DNA of 43,637 nucleotides from Herpetosiphonaceae bacterium (GTDB lineage: Bacteria > Chloroflexota > Chloroflexia > Chloroflexales > Herpetosiphonaceae), in the NCBI GenBank assembly GCA_013813565.1, contig JACCRK010000226.1, positions 1 to 43,637 on the forward strand, given 5' to 3'. Below, one piece after another: positions 446-8,612 of the stretch. Numbering within the stretch: position 1 is the first letter of the stretch; each line of letters opens with the position of its first letter. Position numbers and translations under genes: made by a program. The notes under the pieces are model-generated. The model made no database searches, was not told the DNA's origin, and worked only from the letters and a program-made list of their open reading frames with translations.

Positions 446-488
446 GCAGCAGAATGGGCTATTTCTGAGAAATAGCCCATTCTGCTGC
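446..488. terminator. Bidirectional hairpin between convergent genes
   Basis: Perfect 21-bp arms at 446-466 and 468-488 (gcagcagaatgggctatttc and its complement) lie between the stop of the hydrolase and the stop of the minus-strand membrane protein gene. There is no clear T-run on either side, so it may act as a barrier or an mRNA 3'-end stabiliser and not as a classical intrinsic terminator. Confidence 0.6.
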
Positions 489-513: not shown

Positions 514-1107
514 TTAATAATCCTTCAGGCGATCATCCATACGTTTCTGGCGGGCGGCCTGCTCGGCCTGCTCGGCCGCTTCCTGCTGCTGGCGACGCTC
601 CTCGGCGGCGGCCCGGCCCTCGGCGGTAACCGGCAGGCTGACCCCGATATCGCCCAGCGTCTCGCTGGCGCGGCTCTTAACCTCCTGCAGCTGCTTGCCG
701 CCCGCCTCGACGCCCTGGCGAGTCTTGGCCCAGCCCATCACCAGCACATCCATCGCGATAATACCAACCACATTCCAGAAGGCCTGATAGAACGACCAGG
801 CCAGCTCATTGTAAACCGTATTGATCAGCGAGCGGAACGACCACGACGTGACCAGCTGAAAAATCAGGGCGATAAAGTAGGAGAAAATCAGCACCCGTGT
901 CAGCGAGTGATGCTCCTTTTTCCAGCGCAGGATCGAGACAACTCGTGGTATAAACGGCACAAAGTAGCGGATCAGCACATTCAGCAGCGCCAGGCCAAAG
1001 CCAATAAAGAAATTGGTGAGTGCCTGATCAACCAGCCCTAAAGAGTTTACATTAATCTTCGTGCCCGCCTGATAGAACATCTCCAGCAGGGTTACATGAA
1101 TTTCCAT
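514..1107 (-). CDS. Hypothetical three-helix membrane protein with charged C-terminal helix
   Basis: A 197-aa protein of unrecognised family and the last gene of the AAA+ cassette. Three hydrophobic segments are visible at about residues 31-52, 70-90 and 105-127. The rest is cytoplasm-like: residues 130-197 are charged, rich in Glu/Gln/Ala/Arg and likely helical or coiled-coil. It starts at ATG 1107. No good Shine-Dalgarno sequence sits at normal distance; a GGAGG lies about 29 nt upstream, so initiation may be weak. It follows the 406-aa gene by 94 nt. Its place in the cassette suggests a membrane anchor for the ATPase or coiled-coil partner, which is inference from gene order only. Confidence 0.75.
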   Translation of the reverse strand: MEIHVTLLEMFYQAGTKINVNSLGLVDQALTNFFIGFGLALLNVLIRYFVPFIPRVVSILRWKKEHHSLTRVLIFSYFIALIFQLVTSWSFRSLINTVYNELAWSFYQAFWNVVGIIAMDVLVMGWAKTRQGVEAGGKQLQEVKSRASETLGDIGVSLPVTAEGRAAAEERRQQQEAAEQAEQAARQKRMDDRLKDY

Positions 1108-1201
1108 GGCATTTGTCAGGCGTGTTCGGCCTGCCTCCTCAAGTTTTTAGTAACACCACATCATACGTACCGTCGCGGCCAAGGTTGCAGCAGCGATTAG
1201 C

Positions 1202-2422
1202 CTAGCTGGCAGGGGTGGCTGGCGGCTGCGTGGCGAAGCTATCGGGCAAGTACGGAAAGTGCGCCGCCAGATACTCGCGCTTGGCATCGCTGTAGCGCAG
1301 CCACTCGGCCTGGATAATGCGCTGGTGATGAAAGGACAGCAGGCGATAATCGTAGCGCACAAAGCGCGCCAGCAGATGGACCATCACCTCGTTGGCGCGG
1401 GCCGGCGCTGAGACCGCCCAGCGTCCCTCGGCCGAAAGCCGCGTCGCGCTAAACGGTGCGCCGGCCTGGACACGTTTCAGCTCGCCCTCAAGCTCCCAGT
1501 ACAGCGGCGGCAGCAGCGCCTGGACATTGGTATGGCGCGCCAGCTGGCGGCGGCGGGCGGCGCTATCCTCGCTCGGCTGGATGTTCGCATTGAGCAGGGT
1601 ATCACGCTCGAGATCGGCAACCCGTTTGCGGAAAAACGCCTCCGTGTCCATATAGCGCAGATAGCCGGCGGCGTGTAAATGGTCCACCAGATCGACGTCG
1701 AGATCCAGAACCTTTGATGGTATATCCAAAGGCACCTGCTCGGGCCGAATCGTAATGACAATCGGCTTGCTTTGACTCGCCTGCGCATCGCGGAGCACGT
1801 AGACCGGGCTGGGGAGTTCGGCCCAGAACGAGCTAGTGCCCTTCATGTGGAACGCCGGTGGCAGCGGGCGTCGCCGCGGGTTGCCAACCTGCTTGACCAG
1901 CGCCAGCATCGACTGAATATAGTTATCATCAAGCAGCCGCGACTCCTGGTGCAGCCCCTGGGCCAACGCCAGGAGCTGCGTCGTTTTGTTCAGGGTGTCC
2001 TGCGGCGTGGTCAGGGTGGCATGGATCGCGGTAATCGCCAGCACATCGGTCACATTGCGACAAAACGCCAGGCCATTATCGATCTCGACGATCACCGGCT
2101 CATGCTCGATCAGATGCAGCAGCGTCGTGTGGGCTTCCTGATAGACTTTGGTGATCAGGCCTGGCTCATACGAGAAGCGGCGCATAATCAGCGGCGCAGC
2201 GGCCTGATCGGGCGACAAAATAATGCCGTAGCGGATCGCCTCACAGGTCATGTAGTCCTGGCCCAGGACAGCGGCGAGCTGCGGGCTCCAGCCAAACCGG
2301 TCGATCTTAAAGTCCGGCAGCGGACAGTCAAGGCCGCAGGCGCTTTTCAGCGCCGCGGCATAGCGGGCCACCAGGTGGCCGCTGACGGCGAAGAGTGGAT
2401 TGCTCCAGGGTGTTTTACTCAT
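1202..2422 (-). CDS. Hypothetical protein, fourth gene of AAA+ cassette (406 aa)
   Basis: Soluble-looking 406-residue protein with no signal peptide, membrane helix or motif that I recognise. The N-terminal half is mixed alpha/beta. A central basic stretch (about residues 180-190, NPRRRPLPP) precedes a conserved-looking PSPVYVLRDA segment. The C-terminal half is helical and rich in Arg and aromatic residues. Its ATG overlaps the stop of the AAA+ ATPase gene by one base (TAATG at 2424-2420), so the two are translationally coupled and probably made in fixed ratio. It could be an adaptor or substrate-recognition subunit of the ATPase, but nothing in the sequence proves that. Confidence 0.8.
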   Translation of the reverse strand: MSKTPWSNPLFAVSGHLVARYAAALKSACGLDCPLPDFKIDRFGWSPQLAAVLGQDYMTCEAIRYGIILSPDQAAAPLIMRRFSYEPGLITKVYQEAHTTLLHLIEHEPVIVEIDNGLAFCRNVTDVLAITAIHATLTTPQDTLNKTTQLLALAQGLHQESRLLDDNYIQSMLALVKQVGNPRRRPLPPAFHMKGTSSFWAELPSPVYVLRDAQASQSKPIVITIRPEQVPLDIPSKVLDLDVDLVDHLHAAGYLRYMDTEAFFRKRVADLERDTLLNANIQPSEDSAARRRQLARHTNVQALLPPLYWELEGELKRVQAGAPFSATRLSAEGRWAVSAPARANEVMVHLLARFVRYDYRLLSFHHQRIIQAEWLRYSDAKREYLAAHFPYLPDSFATQPPATPAS

Positions 2423-4185
2423 TACTCTTGCTCAGCCGAACGATCGTTCAGCAGCTCACGGGCTTTGATCTGCGCCTCCAGCTCGGTCGCCAGTCGCTCA
2501 GCGCGTTGGACTTTGGCCTCGTCGCTGTAGCGCTGCTCGGAGTTGAAATACTGCTCCAGCTCAGCGGCGATCATCTCGCCGGTAATTGGCCGGTACAGCC
2601 CGGTCAGCATGGTGACCTTCTGGTCGTAGGGCTGCTCCATAAAGATCGTCGGGTCGGTGTACCAGGTCTCAGGGATATCAAAGTCGGCGCTTTCGGCAAA
2701 CAGCTTCTGGGTGACGCTCTCGATTGGCCGGCCGGTAAAGCGTGGATCCTTGCGCTTAAACTCAATGCACAGCTCGCCCAGCTCCTGCCAGCTGACCTGT
2801 TTTTTGCCAGCGAACGGGTTGGCCAGCTTGAATCCGGCCTTCGGCGCGGCGGTTGGCGCGGCCATTGGCGGCAGCGTGCCGCTGACCTGCACCAGATTGT
2901 GCTTGATCTGGCGGGCCAGCTTGATCTGGGTCAGGCGGGCGTAGTCCTCCCAGGTCTCGGGGCCGTCGATCGCCTCGCGCTGGTGGAAGCGCTGGCGCAG
3001 GGCGCTGTCGGTTGCGGTTGGCTCGTTGGTCGCGGCGTAGGTCTGGGCGTTGCCGATGTGCTTGGTAAATGCGCCATCAAGAAACTGCATGGTGATGTTC
3101 AAGACATCTTTGTCGGCGCCGCCCATGCCGGGGTCGCCACGGGAGAGCAGCAGCAGATCGACATCATCGAAGAACACCAGCACCAGCGAGCCGCGCTCGC
3201 GGACAATCGCCAGCTTCTCGTTGAGCAGCTTGCCGGTGCGCCCGTAGTACTCGTCCTTGATGCCGGGGTCGATCGTGACAAAGCGAACCGGCAGGCCGGT
3301 CTGCTCGCCGCGCTCGGTCAGGCGGGTCATCGCCATGCGAAAGAGCGAGGTTTTGCCGGTGCCAGGAAAGCCATCGAACAGCACCGTGCTGGGCAGGCCG
3401 CCAAGCTCAAGCAGCGGGTTGAAGCCGCGCTCAACATCGAACAGCGCCAGCCGATCGACGTAGCGCACCAGGGCGCGCTTGGCCGAGGTGTTGCCGACGA
3501 TCTGCTCGGGGAGCATTGGCGTGAACTCGACCTTGGCGACCGCGCCCTCAGCGGAGATCGCAAAGCCGCGCAGCTCAATCCCGCCAACCTTGATCGTGCT
3601 GCCCTCGACCTGGGCCAGCAGCGCCGCCGCGTGGGTATCGCTGCCGGCCACCAGCTGGTCGCGCAGGGCCATAAAGTAGTCGCGGGTCAGGTTGACCAGA
3701 TCGGCGGCGGTCTCGATCAGAAACGTGTTATCGGCGTTCTTCTGGGTGGTCGCCTTCAGATAGAACGAGAGGATGGTCTTCAGGTCGTCATCGGCGCCCA
3801 GGCCCAGCTTGAAGAAGCCTGGCTCCGGCTTGGGAAACGTCGCCAGATCCTCGCCCTCGGGCATGGGCAGCTCGTGGCTCACCAGGGCCGCCAGGGCAAA
3901 CATGGCATAGCTGCCAATAAACGCCGTCTGGCGCGGATCGATCTTGGCCCCCAGCTCCTCGGACAGCTCGAAGTACAGGCAGATCCCCCGGCGCAGCGTG
4001 ATCAGCACATGGTTGACCTGCTCGCTGAGCAGGTATCCGCCGGCGCCGGGGAGCTTGCGCAGCTCGCCCACCAGATCATACGAGACGCCGCGCATGGGCA
4101 CATTCTGCATGCGAAACTCGGCGTCGGCGCGATGTCCATCGAGGTCGGCATCGCTAATCGCATGAACGTTATCTTTCGTCGTCAC
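2422..4185 (-). CDS. AAA+ family ATPase with long N-terminal domain
   Basis: A 587-aa protein. Residues 1-225 form an uncharacterised N-terminal domain. The AAA+ core spans about 226-405: Walker A GFPGTGKT (272-279), Walker B VLVFFDD (335-341), sensor-1 Asn in ATNEP (387) and Arg-finger candidates in ALRQRF (397 and 399). The second acidic residue of Walker B is Asp where AAA+ proteins usually have Glu, which could slow hydrolysis. A helical C-terminal region of about 180 residues ends in a charged coiled stretch. Translation starts at GTG 4185, preceded by AGGGAG at good spacing. A 6-bp-stem hairpin (4204-4220) lies just upstream. The ATP-dependent remodelling role is known for the superfamily; the substrate is unknown. 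Confidence 0.9.
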   Translation of the reverse strand: MTTKDNVHAISDADLDGHRADAEFRMQNVPMRGVSYDLVGELRKLPGAGGYLLSEQVNHVLITLRRGICLYFELSEELGAKIDPRQTAFIGSYAMFALAALVSHELPMPEGEDLATFPKPEPGFFKLGLGADDDLKTILSFYLKATTQKNADNTFLIETAADLVNLTRDYFMALRDQLVAGSDTHAAALLAQVEGSTIKVGGIELRGFAISAEGAVAKVEFTPMLPEQIVGNTSAKRALVRYVDRLALFDVERGFNPLLELGGLPSTVLFDGFPGTGKTSLFRMAMTRLTERGEQTGLPVRFVTIDPGIKDEYYGRTGKLLNEKLAIVRERGSLVLVFFDDVDLLLLSRGDPGMGGADKDVLNITMQFLDGAFTKHIGNAQTYAATNEPTATDSALRQRFHQREAIDGPETWEDYARLTQIKLARQIKHNLVQVSGTLPPMAAPTAAPKAGFKLANPFAGKKQVSWQELGELCIEFKRKDPRFTGRPIESVTQKLFAESADFDIPETWYTDPTIFMEQPYDQKVTMLTGLYRPITGEMIAAELEQYFNSEQRYSDEAKVQRAERLATELEAQIKARELLNDRSAEQE

Positions 4186-4203
4186 AACGCAACTCCCTGT
4201 GTT

Positions 4204-4220
4204 CCTCTCGACAAGAGAGG
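4204..4220 (-). other. Intercistronic hairpin before the AAA+ gene
   Basis: The sequence cctctc-gacaa-gagagg forms a short perfect stem in the 45-nt gap between the 355-aa gene and the AAA+ gene. It may set relative expression within the operon. It has no T-run on the minus strand and is unlikely to terminate transcription. Confidence 0.4.
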
Positions 4221-4230
4221 TGAAAAATGA

Positions 4231-5298
4231 TTAGCACACCAGATCGCCATTTCGGGAAACTCCGTAGACGATATCGGGATTCCCATCCTCGTCGGTGTCG
4301 CCGAGGAACTGCTTCATTGGCAGCGGCACCAGCACAAACGTCGAGTGGATCGATGGGCCGGCCTGCATCGGCTCGCGGCCAAATAGAATATCGGTAAACG
4401 AGCGCTGGCCCGGCTTGGTGGTGGCGACCCGATCGATCGTACTGCGCAGCATCCATGGCTCGTCGGCGTGGGTAAAGGCGCGCCGCATAATCACATCGTT
4501 TTCCGTCCAGCGATGGTGGTAGGGGCCAATCGTGACCCGCTCGATCGTCTGGGGAATAATCCAGGCAGCCTCGTTGCACAGGCCGATGATCTCCTGCAGC
4601 GGGTGGCGGCCGTGGGCGCAGTTGTTGATCAGGTCCTGGAGCATGTCCAGCCCGCCGGTGACGTGCCAGCCGCCGCGCTCCTGAAAATGCAGCGTCGTGC
4701 ACTCAAACAGATTGACGCTGCGAATCACGCCGGTCCAGCTGATCGAGTACAGGCGATTGCCACGCCCTGGCGTCAGGCGAATCGGGTCGTAGATGCGAAA
4801 GTCGGCCACCACGCTGGTCGCCGCCAGCCGATCAAGGTAGGTGCGCTGCAGCCAGAGGATCTGCTGTTTGATCGGGCGCTCGCCACGAAAGATCGCCTCG
4901 ATCGCCTGCTCGATCAGCTCGCTGTGCGACGGGATCTGGGCCAGCTGCTGCAGGGCGTGCTCGCAGTCCTCGCGCAGGGTCCAGAAATCCTTGAAGGTCG
5001 GCATGCCCGACTCGGTCGGGTCGATCGTGAGCGGCAGCGGCTCGATCTGCAAGAGCTGCCGCCCGTGCTTCAGCGCCATCACCATCAGCGTGGCCCGCAG
5101 CTCGTGGAGGAACTCACGGGTCGCGTTGGCGGCGCCGATACTGAGCCGGCCCTCCTTCTGCTCCTCGCTGATCGCGGAGCGCAGCCAGCCGAAGCGCTCA
5201 CCAAGCTGATCGCAGTAGCCGACGACCGCCTCGTCAGGCAGCAGCCGCTCGGCCTGGCCAGCGCCCTGGGATTGCAGTGGGTGACGATTGATAGTCAT
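4231..5298 (-). CDS. Hypothetical protein, second gene of the AAA+ cassette (355 aa)
   Basis: A soluble 355-residue protein of unrecognised family. The N-terminal 160 residues are helical. The middle, from about 165, has beta-rich features such as FRIYDPIRLTPGRGNRLYSI. The C-terminus includes an acidic GDTDEDGNPD loop that resembles a calcium-binding turn but is not a full EF-hand. The ATG at 5298 lies 3 nt after the stop of the coiled-coil gene and lacks its own clear ribosome-binding site, so translation is probably coupled. Its position inside the cassette is the only clue to role. Confidence 0.8.
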   Translation of the reverse strand: MTINRHPLQSQGAGQAERLLPDEAVVGYCDQLGERFGWLRSAISEEQKEGRLSIGAANATREFLHELRATLMVMALKHGRQLLQIEPLPLTIDPTESGMPTFKDFWTLREDCEHALQQLAQIPSHSELIEQAIEAIFRGERPIKQQILWLQRTYLDRLAATSVVADFRIYDPIRLTPGRGNRLYSISWTGVIRSVNLFECTTLHFQERGGWHVTGGLDMLQDLINNCAHGRHPLQEIIGLCNEAAWIIPQTIERVTIGPYHHRWTENDVIMRRAFTHADEPWMLRSTIDRVATTKPGQRSFTDILFGREPMQAGPSIHSTFVLVPLPMKQFLGDTDEDGNPDIVYGVSRNGDLVC

Positions 5299-5301
5299 AG
5301 G

Positions 5302-6408
5302 TTACCGTTTTTGGGCATACTGATCTTCGAGCTGCTCCATGCGGGCATCGAAGGTCTGAATGATCTGTTCCAGGTGATCGGTGTAGGCCTTGAGCTTGTC
5401 TTCGTCGATCAGCTTCTTCTCGGCCCGGTCGGCGGTCTCGGCCAGAATTCCCTCAACCTGCTCGGTCATCACACGGGTGGTCGAGTCGGCGGCGTAGTTG
5501 ATCGACTTATCGATGGTCGAGAAGCCCTTGATCTCCAGCGCGGTCTCCATAATCTGGTAGATCCCCTCGAAGACCTGGGTCAGGTTGGCGATCTTCTCCT
5601 GGGTTTTGATTTTGTTCTGCGACAGGGCGGCGACAGCCTGCTTGAAGCCTTCCATATGGGCGCGCACGACCGGCTGGGCCTCTTTGGCGTTCTTGAGGAC
5701 CTCGAAGTACTGGGTCTCGTTGAGCTTGGCCTCGTCGAGCTCGCCTTGGCGCTGGGTGCGCTCGGCCTGGAGCGGGGCATAGCCAGTCTCATCGGAGACC
5801 TGGATCCGGCGGTCAAGCTCGGCCAGCTCGCCCTCCAGCCGCTTGACCTCCAGCCGCCAGTGCTCGTACTTGGGCTGGTTATCGACCAGCTTCTGCGACA
5901 GCTCCATGTCGGTGGCCTGCAGCTTGGAGTAGACCTGGGCGTTCTTGGCGATCGCCGCGCTAAGCGAGTCGACGGTGCCACGGGCATAGGCCAGGACGGT
6001 CTTCATCGAGCCATCAACATTTTGCTCCCGAATCCGATTGACCACCATCTGGCGGGCCCAGCGCTTGTTGAACACGCCGACGAAGCGCTCCACCGGGCGG
6101 GCATCGCGCAGGGTCGCCACATTCCGGCCCAGCTCATCAAGCTCGCTGGTCAGGTCGACGATCAGCGTCTGCAGATCGGCGGTGTACTCGCGGCCATTGG
6201 TGATGGCGCCATCAAGCTGGCTCAGCTCGGCCACGTTGGTCTTCTGGCGCTGCTTCGGGTCGGTCAGGCGATTGACGGTGGTTTCATACTGGGTCATCCG
6301 CTGGTCGACATCGCGCTCAAGCTCGACCTCGCGCAGGCGGACGGCTTTGAGCTTATCGGCTTTCTTTTTCCCGCCTTTGGTTTTACTGAGAATCTGTTCG
6401 TCAACCAT
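5302..6408 (-). CDS. Coiled-coil protein, first gene of AAA+ cassette
   Basis: A 368-aa, highly charged, almost entirely helical protein. Heptad-like patterns run through about residues 40-110 and 150-290, the N-terminus is Lys-rich (KTKGGKKKADK), and there are no membrane helices. The C-terminal 100 residues (from QNKIKTQEKIANL to the end) loosely recall the C-terminal region of TelA-type toxic-anion-resistance proteins. This is pattern memory only and should be treated as weak. The start is ATG 6408, with AAGGAG 11 nt upstream. It follows aceK by 166 nt and is tightly joined to the 355-aa gene. A scaffold or filament-like partner of the AAA+ ATPase is plausible. Confidence 0.8.
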   Translation of the reverse strand: MVDEQILSKTKGGKKKADKLKAVRLREVELERDVDQRMTQYETTVNRLTDPKQRQKTNVAELSQLDGAITNGREYTADLQTLIVDLTSELDELGRNVATLRDARPVERFVGVFNKRWARQMVVNRIREQNVDGSMKTVLAYARGTVDSLSAAIAKNAQVYSKLQATDMELSQKLVDNQPKYEHWRLEVKRLEGELAELDRRIQVSDETGYAPLQAERTQRQGELDEAKLNETQYFEVLKNAKEAQPVVRAHMEGFKQAVAALSQNKIKTQEKIANLTQVFEGIYQIMETALEIKGFSTIDKSINYAADSTTRVMTEQVEGILAETADRAEKKLIDEDKLKAYTDHLEQIIQTFDARMEQLEDQYAQKR

Positions 6409-6574
6409 GATGGATCCATCTCCTTGATAAAGGGTATTTCAGACATTGTTTGCTATGCGCTACAGGTATACTCTACGCCGGCCTGCTGGGAAGGTTGCAG
6501 CGCCGGAGTCGGCACTGGTGTGGTGCGGTCAGGAGTTCTGGCTATTGTAGAGCAACTTGCAGCTTCGTCAACCG

Positions 6575-8314
6575 CTAGCCGGGCAGCTGGCTCAGGCGCT
6601 GGCTGGAATCGTAGGGAAAGATGTCGATCACCTCGCCGGCGTTGAGCCGAGCCTGAATCTGTTGCCAGAAGTCGACGGTCAGAATCTCGCCGTGGGAGCG
6701 CATAAACACGTCGCGCAGGGGCGTCCGCAGACCCAGGAAATAGCGAAACTCTTCGGGAAAGACATCGTTCTCGCCGACGGCGTACCAGGGCTCGGCGGCG
6801 ATCTCCTCGTCGTAGCTGGTTGGCTCGGGCATGTGCTTGAAGTTACAGGTCGTCATCAGGCTCAGCTCGTCGTAGTCGTAGAACACGACCCGGCCATTGC
6901 GGGTCACGCCGAAGTTCTTGAGCAGCATATCGCCGGGGAAGATATTGCTGATCGCCAGATCTTTGATCGCGTTGCCGAACTCCAGCGTGGCGGCCGCCGC
7001 GGCGGCTGGCTCCGCCTCGCGCAGGTAGACATCAAGCGGCGTGACTCGGCGCTCAACATAGACGTGCTTGATGATCACATGGTCGTCCTCAACCACCACG
7101 CTGTTGGCGGCGACCCGCTGCAGCTCGGTCAGCAGGGCCTCCCCAAAGCGCTGGCGGTCGAGCTTGAGATACTCAAACTCGTGGGCGTCGATCAGGCGGC
7201 CGGCCCGATCGTGCTTGAAGACTAGATGATATTTGTCCATCACGGCCTGGCGGGTCGTGTCTTTGGGCGGCGAGAACCAGTCCTTGATAATCTTGAACAC
7301 CACATCGTAGGAGGGCATCGTGAAGACCGTCATCACCATGCCGCGCTCGCCAGGGGCGATCTCGAAGGTGTCCTGCGTCTGGCTGAGGTGGCGCAGCAGG
7401 TCGCGATAGAACTCGGTCTTGCCATGCTTGTGGTAGCCGATCGCAATGTACAGCGCCGCAATGCGCTTCTCGGGCATAATCGAGGCCAGAAAGTGGACCA
7501 GATCATAGGGTCGCTCGATATCGACGTGAAAGTACGAGCGGGTAAAGCTAAACAGAATATTGACCTCGGCCTCGCGCAGCAGCACCGCATCGACGGAGAT
7601 CCCGTCCGGGGTGGAGAGCAGCGCCAGCACCAGCGGAGTCGTCTGCTCCTGGCTGATGATGCGCCCGACCAGATAGGCGGCCTTGTTGCGATAGAACACC
7701 GCGCAGACCATCTCGACGCGCTCATAGGTTGCGGCGATGCCCAGCTCGGCCAGGTATGCCTCGATCACGTCGGCCGCCCGCCGCATATCGCGCTCCAGCG
7801 CCTGATAGCGCACCCCGAACGGATAGTCGAGCAGCACGGTCGCGATCAGCTCGGCGGTGGTGGCGGCGCGTGGGTAGGTGCGATAGACCGGCTGGCTGGC
7901 GCAGGTCTGCGGTGTGGCAAAGTCGGTGGCGATAAACTCAAGCTGGGGGTTGACCCCAACGGTGACAAAGATGCGCCGGGTCACCGAGTTGTAAAACGTT
8001 TCGGCCAGCTCCCAGTCGTCGCGGTCGGCGATCAGACCCGAGTAGACGGCTTTCATGCTGACCCAGACAATGGTGTTGGTGAGCCGCTCGCCGAGCATGC
8101 TGCTAATCTCGGCCACAATCCGCGTCACCAGGGTGGTGTACAGATCAAGGCGGGTGGCGGTGCCGGCCTGGAGCGCCGGCCAGTCCTGCTGCTCAAAGCG
8201 CCGCTGCACCTGGCGGGTGATCAGCTTAAAGTGCTGCTGGTACTCATCGAAGGTGTGATAGATGGCGTTGGCGGCCAGATTAGCCAGCCGGCTATCGGTG
8301 AGATGCTCGTTCAT
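6575..8314 (-). CDS. aceK: Isocitrate dehydrogenase kinase/phosphatase
   Basis: AceK phosphorylates and dephosphorylates isocitrate dehydrogenase and so sets the split between the TCA cycle and the glyoxylate bypass. The 579-aa product matches the usual length (about 578 in E. coli). Family landmarks are all present: ELAETFYNSVTRRIF near residue 103, HKHGKTEFYRDLLRHL in the ATP-binding region, GERGMVMTVFTMPSYD, VIIKHVYVERRVTPL, NIFPGDMLLKNFGVTR and VVFYDYDE, with the active-site Asp residues of the last two retained. I chose ATG 8314, preceded by AAGGAG, over an in-frame ATG 75 nt upstream, because the family N-terminus aligns here. No isocitrate lyase, malate synthase or icd is in the window. 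The family is best known from Proteobacteria, so lateral transfer is possible. Confidence 0.95.
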   Translation of the reverse strand: MNEHLTDSRLANLAANAIYHTFDEYQQHFKLITRQVQRRFEQQDWPALQAGTATRLDLYTTLVTRIVAEISSMLGERLTNTIVWVSMKAVYSGLIADRDDWELAETFYNSVTRRIFVTVGVNPQLEFIATDFATPQTCASQPVYRTYPRAATTAELIATVLLDYPFGVRYQALERDMRRAADVIEAYLAELGIAATYERVEMVCAVFYRNKAAYLVGRIISQEQTTPLVLALLSTPDGISVDAVLLREAEVNILFSFTRSYFHVDIERPYDLVHFLASIMPEKRIAALYIAIGYHKHGKTEFYRDLLRHLSQTQDTFEIAPGERGMVMTVFTMPSYDVVFKIIKDWFSPPKDTTRQAVMDKYHLVFKHDRAGRLIDAHEFEYLKLDRQRFGEALLTELQRVAANSVVVEDDHVIIKHVYVERRVTPLDVYLREAEPAAAAAATLEFGNAIKDLAISNIFPGDMLLKNFGVTRNGRVVFYDYDELSLMTTCNFKHMPEPTSYDEEIAAEPWYAVGENDVFPEEFRYFLGLRTPLRDVFMRSHGEILTVDFWQQIQARLNAGEVIDIFPYDSSQRLSQLPG

Positions 8315-8612
8315 GGTGCGCTCCTTGCGCCGATCCCAAAGGTTCAGCTCCGCTTTGATCGATGGTTGGCGCGAAAAAGGATACCACAATCTCTGGCAAC
8401 GTTGTTGGCCAGGTCGCTGAGTGGATGGTGTTCAGAAGTTGCTACGGATTTCAGCGATCAGGCCGCCAGTGCAGGCTCGTGGTACGGTGAAGCCAGGTGG
8501 GCTTAGCGTAAAGGGATCATTACTCCCAGCGCGCCACCGCTATGATAGGCTGGAGGACGGATAGGTAAAATCAGGCCAGCTTTCAGCGCTGCAAAGCCCA
8601 GGGAGGTGTGGA
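8315..8612. other. Divergent intergenic region between aceK and the metal transporter
   Basis: About 300 nt must hold promoters in both directions. On the plus strand a -10-like TATGAT is at 8541-8546 with no good -35. I see no convincing aceK promoter and no clear operator or gene. Confidence 0.4.

Follow-up and report, generated by a model that had tools for sequence, protein, structure and literature searches.

The window analysed here is a 43,637-nucleotide stretch of DNA from a Herpetosiphonaceae bacterium of the phylum Chloroflexota, whose genome has a size of 4.17 Mb and is 76% complete. Five open reading frames (ORFs) on the minus strand, A-B-C-D-E, span positions 6408 to 514. Gene A (5302..6408) encodes a charged, helical (coiled-coil-like) protein of 368 aa, gene B (4231..5298) a protein of 355 aa, gene C (2422..4185) a classical-AAA ATPase of 587 aa, gene D (1202..2422) a DUF6638 protein of 406 aa, and gene E (514..1107) a protein of 197 aa whose three hydrophobic segments precede a charged tail. 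The junctions measure 3 nt (A/B), 45 nt (B/C), -1 nt (C/D) and 94 nt (D/E). Base 2422 is common to C and D, the start of D overlapping the stop of C (TAATG). An earlier, sequence-only reading of this DNA had described the same five genes, and its coordinates and junctions were reproduced exactly in the ORF list of the window.

A promoter-like site, TTGACG-16-TACAAT, is found 5' of A (6544..6571, minus strand; a match to the consensus only) and AAGGAG precedes the ATG of A; together they plausibly mark the head of an operon. The ORF 3' of E is convergent, and between the two lies a perfect 21-bp inverted repeat (446..488) that can form a hairpin (folding z=-5.5) and likely represents a bidirectional transcript end. 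In the Chloroflexota genome the cassette is adjoined upstream by the gene for AceK, isocitrate dehydrogenase kinase/phosphatase (6575-8389, minus strand, 724.5 bits).

The AAA motor and its partner proteins

The AAA core of C matches Pfam PF00004 (E=6e-13), and its key residues are invariant in an alignment of 10 homologues. The Walker A motif GFPGTGKT (3349..3372, minus strand; residues 272-279) is unvaried at P274, G275, T276, G277, K278 and T279, and the Walker B motif FFDDVD (3157..3174, minus strand; residues 338-343) at D340, D341 and D343, with Asp-Asp replacing the usual Asp-Glu in all homologues. The second region of homology (SRH), DSALRQRFHQR (2977..3009, minus strand; D393 to R403), is invariant at D393, A395, L396, R397, Q398, R399 and R403, and its arginines are candidate arginine fingers of the kind typical for classical AAA proteins. 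The sensor-1 Asn and a sensor-2-like GR motif (G485 R486) are likewise invariant. C thus combines a GxPGTGKT Walker A, a Walker B, sensor 1 and the SRH arginines of classical AAA proteins and, as judged from these motifs, is an intact classical-AAA motor, which bears out the initial identification of an AAA+ ATPase with an Asp-Asp Walker B.

The closest solved structures to C are Cdc48/p97-type classical AAA proteins. C was nevertheless rejected as a member of that family: it scores 27.7 bits against TIGR01243 (cut-off 803) and has one AAA domain where the family has two. Nothing convincing was found in Pfam for its N-domain (~210 aa), and the MIT domain that is a criterion for Vps4 gave no Pfam match in seven N-domains at E<=10. 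The anti-phage ATPase IetA was also considered and dismissed, the similarity being partial and limited to the AAA core (31.8 bits in PADLOC; 20.4 bits against a cut-off of 510), with no partner peptidase such as the subtilisin IetS. In family profile searches none of the five proteins matched MoxR or vWA, nor did anything assign them to a gas-vesicle, tellurite or MoxR system, the known complexes that had been named beforehand as possible homes for the cassette.

A has no transmembrane segment by hydropathy. Within the clade formed by Chloroflexota and Wallbacteria it is the most conserved non-motor subunit. Neither A nor B nor E has a significant match in Pfam or other family profiles. D, however, belongs to Pfam DUF6638 (PF20343; E=4e-22, 79.1 bits against a gathering cut-off of 27), so that the first impression of families unrecognisable apart from the AAA+ protein holds for A, B and E and fails for D. 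The length and charge of A suggested TelA (PF05816), which was rejected after a negative hhalign comparison with 11 TelA proteins and in view of the lack of a Pfam match. PspA_IM30 and Snf7 were discarded too: they are absent among the 25 families listed for 11 A members at E<=10, and single A members do not match them at E<=1 either.

These results bear on the possibility that the cassette is a distant variant of an envelope-stress system already known, either Ter (TelA) or PSP/ESCRT-III (PspA/Snf7 with Vps4). The general layout of a classical AAA protein, a charged helical protein and a membrane protein is alike, and the tail of E loosely resembles MIM-type leucine-rich docking motifs. PspA/Snf7 genes at times adjoin AAA+ ATPases (PMC11237479). 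Against this, profile-profile comparison of A with TelA was negative, PspA_IM30, Snf7, TelA and MIT are missing among the Pfam matches listed at E<=10 for the A members and the C N-domains, and no Ter genes lie nearby. Judged by sequence, membership in such a system appears largely refuted, and we regard it as very unlikely.

The AlphaFold model of B has a helical N-terminal half and an alpha/beta C-terminal half (pLDDT 77.5, pTM 0.78) and retrieved no PDB match at E<=0.1 with Foldseek. A similarity to maturation proteins of ssRNA phages in a viral structure library (E about 0.003) came with a TM of about 0.1 and was treated as noise. The D model (pLDDT 76.4, pTM 0.49) likewise had no PDB match at E<=0.1, a negative that carries little weight given the modest quality of the model. 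Neither Pfam nor Foldseek searches of the models revealed a nuclease, NTPase-effector or toxin fold in B or D. Since the two folds match nothing, B or D may have an enzymatic role. DUF6638 is not mentioned in the open-access literature searched.

Distribution and co-inheritance of the cassette

The order A-B-C-D-E is found in different surroundings in a second Herpetosiphonaceae genome and in Chloroflexi AL-N1. In another genome of the Chloroflexales, B-C-D-E is interrupted between C and D by an additional ORF (2570-3991 of that record) that encodes 473 aa with a secretion-signal-like start. In three Wallbacteria genomes B-C-D is followed by a membrane protein of ~200 aa, and in a fourth the contig is cut off before B; all four also encode A, with about 50% identity, elsewhere in the genome and unlinked to the other genes. 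A divergent B-C-D operon is present in a further genome of the Wallbacteria group (L042).

Iterated profiles extended the A-B-C-D operon to Vibrio replicons of 0.88-0.94 Mb (termed megaplasmids), Sinorhizobium, Shinella and Rhizobium leguminosarum. In the S. meliloti record C and D are separated by an IS element and a short ORF, and mfd lies directly downstream of the operon in three Vibrio records (L010, L014 and L066; 0.92-0.94 Mb). The DUF6638 members of Vibrio and Rhizobiaceae adjoin C homologues. Profile-profile comparison establishes homology between the Chloroflexota and proteobacterial groups for all four proteins (A 93%, E=5e-7; B 98%; C 100%; D 99.8%). The operon is also carried by the 359-kb contig IMGVR_UViG_3300035698_035310, whose viral label consists of the IMG/VR classification and a weak match to an Rz-like spanin; no match to Terminase_6N was found on it. 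Phage-type genes lie near its operon. In PHROGs, A, B and D of this contig have no family and C has weak AAA matches only.

Among 80 genomes of the window's order, the same set being used for every protein, A is found in five, B in the same five, and C and D in four each (a match to C at E=3.5e-13 in one further genome covers the AAA core alone and was left out of the count). C and D sit in four of the five genomes with A and B; the fifth has a contig that breaks off within B, so that C-E may be missing merely from the assembly. Apart from this contig-end case, none of the four proteins occurs without the others in the sample, and the co-occurrence of A with C has a hypergeometric probability of 3e-6. 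The distribution is patchy, as the carriers fall in different families of the order. A phylum-wide sample of 400 genomes, drawn evenly and differing in this from the order sample, contains the system in the window genome only.

The FastTree phylogenies of all four proteins share a main split between Chloroflexota plus Wallbacteria and Proteobacteria plus the viral contig; the placement of the viral contig inside the latter clade differs between genes. Identity between the two main clades is about 14-27% for the four proteins. Across phyla within the Chloroflexota/Wallbacteria clade it is 51% for A, 45% for C, 26% for B and 18% for D. Distance matrices correlate best between A and C (r=0.98) and least between A and D (0.78). 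The tracking of A with C is as might be expected for a motor and its client; it is supportive and not proof of contact, because shared ancestry alone raises such correlations.

That the genes are unrelated and adjacent by chance has in its favour the unlinked A of Wallbacteria and nothing else. The way the set reappears in different phyla and the near-perfect co-occurrence refute it and leave it a negligible probability. Because the order A-B-C-D(-E) recurs in unrelated surroundings, the arrangement reflects more than chance, and we conclude with high confidence that A, B, C and D are one co-inherited system. The sequence-only reading had proposed a dedicated unit, to be abandoned if homologues scattered independently; instead they stay together, in the order sample as well as in the operons of Proteobacteria and the viral contig. 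As the cassette recurs in distant phyla and on a virus-classified contig, it probably is a real machine.

The same distribution could point to a conflict or exclusion system, anti-phage in bacteria or serving superinfection exclusion on the virus, in which the AAA ring and the coiled-coil protein would form a membrane-proximal barrier or mount an abortive response. Presence in 5 of the 80 order genomes is patchy, large Vibrio replicons and the 359-kb IMG/VR contig are carriers, and TelA-like sub-membrane genes have been described in jumbo phages (PMC7824862). However, PADLOC models detect nothing in the cassette past generic AAA similarity, B and D are without a recognised nuclease, NTPase-effector or toxin fold, and the neighbours of the cassette are housekeeping genes, not defence islands. 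We therefore consider a conflict function quite unlikely. That large Vibrio replicons and a virus-classified contig carry the cassette does suggest a useful portable function.

Membrane partners

Hydropathy, the sole basis for its predicted topology, gives E three hydrophobic segments followed by a charged C-terminal tail of ~70 aa. The protein ends in MDDRLKDY-COOH (517..540, minus strand), whose counterpart in the E-like proteins of Wallbacteria is LDDKLNNY-COOH. The profile relation between E and the Wallbacteria protein is weak (17.8%, E=0.0014); they have in common the position in the locus, the hydrophobic helices and the C-terminal motif. The extreme C-termini of E and its E-like counterparts follow the pattern hydrophobic-D/N-D/E-R/K/Q-L-x-x-aromatic, and in a background of about 400 C-termini, which includes the E and E-like members themselves, these alone reach the score of the last eight residues. 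We consider this motif a candidate docking tail. In the Wallbacteria-group genome L042, the protein in the E slot bears RMDELL near its C-terminus.

In Wallbacteria-group operons the E-like gene is followed 3' by a gene for another membrane-anchored protein (L005, 11797-13251; L042, 5024-6289). Its Wallbacteria version has one N-terminal transmembrane segment and no family; the protein is possibly a sixth component of the operons in this group.

E was not found in proteobacterial loci. There, the downstream neighbour of the cassette in Sinorhizobium and Shinella is DUF2333 (PF10095), and on the viral contig a DUF2333 gene (304.9 bits) immediately precedes A. Four Vibrio replicons have DUF2333 away from the operon, and the operon of R. 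leguminosarum has no recognised membrane partner next to it. DUF2333 is absent beside the cassette of the window, where E holds that slot. Pseudomonas phage Y11 (OQ572412.1, 49859-50695) encodes a DUF2333 protein that shares 44% identity with its viral-contig counterpart. The open-access literature searched holds one paper on DUF2333, which gives no function.

A membrane protein thus travels with the cassette in most lineages, and the families differ per lineage (E, E-like, DUF2333). This makes a membrane association of the unit plausible, the localisation being a prediction. Of the membrane-associated machine with a scaffold that was first proposed, the membrane protein has found support in this recurrence; the machine and the scaffold are inferred, and A is unlinked in Wallbacteria.

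A predicted remodelling machine and its relation to known systems

We tentatively propose, at somewhat less than even chances, that the cassette encodes an AAA+ machine that is tethered to the membrane and remodels A, B and D serving as its adaptors. As a member of the classical AAA clade, C would assemble into an ATP-driven ring, presumably a hexamer. E would hold C at the cytoplasmic face of the membrane, its cytosolic tail docking through the conserved end hydrophobic-D-D-R/K-L-x-x-aromatic, and DUF2333 would take over the anchor role in Proteobacteria. A, the putative main client, would build a sub-membrane scaffold or polymer that is disassembled or reshaped by the ATP hydrolysis cycles of C, and B and D may deliver A, or cargo close to the membrane, to the ring. 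Of this scheme the sequences show the gene set, the obligate joint occurrence of its members, intact motifs of the ATPase, a membrane partner that recurs and the common E tail. That its task lies in membrane maintenance is inferred with low confidence. Several features argue against the proposal: A is without a match to PspA, Snf7 or TelA and, in Wallbacteria, lies apart from B-C-D; the N-domain of C is without MIT or any other recognised substrate-binding domain; E is missing from the proteobacterial loci; and the unmatched folds of B and D leave room for an enzymatic role.

Several of these observations also fit a chaperone or quality-control module, in which the AAA ring would unfold or assemble membrane-protein complexes brought by B and D, with A as a cofactor or stalk. 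Among solved structures the AAA core is nearest to Cdc48/p97-type unfoldases, the two large, fast-evolving partners B and D resemble cargo adaptors, and the membrane protein that accompanies the unit in most lineages would suit such a role. Yet genes for a protease, a ubiquitin-like protein or a known p97 cofactor are absent from the cassette neighbourhoods examined, and A is conserved at least as well as the motor in the Chloroflexota/Wallbacteria clade, which is unusual for a mere cofactor. We judge this explanation somewhat unlikely.

Whatever its substrate, the cassette unites DUF6638 and the model-less families A, B and E in one testable system, and in Proteobacteria it links DUF2333 to the DUF6638 system. 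Its presence in Sinorhizobium makes a compact AAA machine accessible to genetics, with which to ask if bacteria have ATP-recycled membrane scaffolds independent of PspA/Vipp1.

No description of the cassette as a system was found in the open-access literature searched. The membrane-remodelling operons of FtsZ-like-1 (PMC2875224) were compared and set aside, as their gene content differs. DUF2333 is membrane-anchored and adjoins the cassette in Sinorhizobium, Shinella and the viral contig but not in the window. Like the sub-membrane TelA of Ter, A is a charged helical cytosolic protein of similar size in a membrane context, but it has no profile relation to TelA and no other Ter gene accompanies the cassette. 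With the classical AAA proteins Cdc48/p97, Vps4/CdvC and PAN, C shares the Walker A and B motifs, sensor 1 and the SRH; it differs in having its own ~210-aa N-domain without a Pfam match, a single AAA domain, the Asp-Asp Walker B and the obligate partners A, B and D. Bacterial PSP/ESCRT-III with AAA+ proteins, for which ATP-dependent membrane remodelling has been proposed (PMC11237479), resemble the cassette in combining an AAA protein, a charged helical protein and a membrane protein, whereas A is not PspA or Snf7 and C has no detectable MIT domain. It is conceivable, if unlikely, that the cassette is a new bacterial counterpart of ESCRT-III/Vps4, in which a coiled-coil scaffold of A, unrelated to PspA/Snf7, would be recycled by a C ring recruited via the tail of E, in three phyla and at least one large virus.
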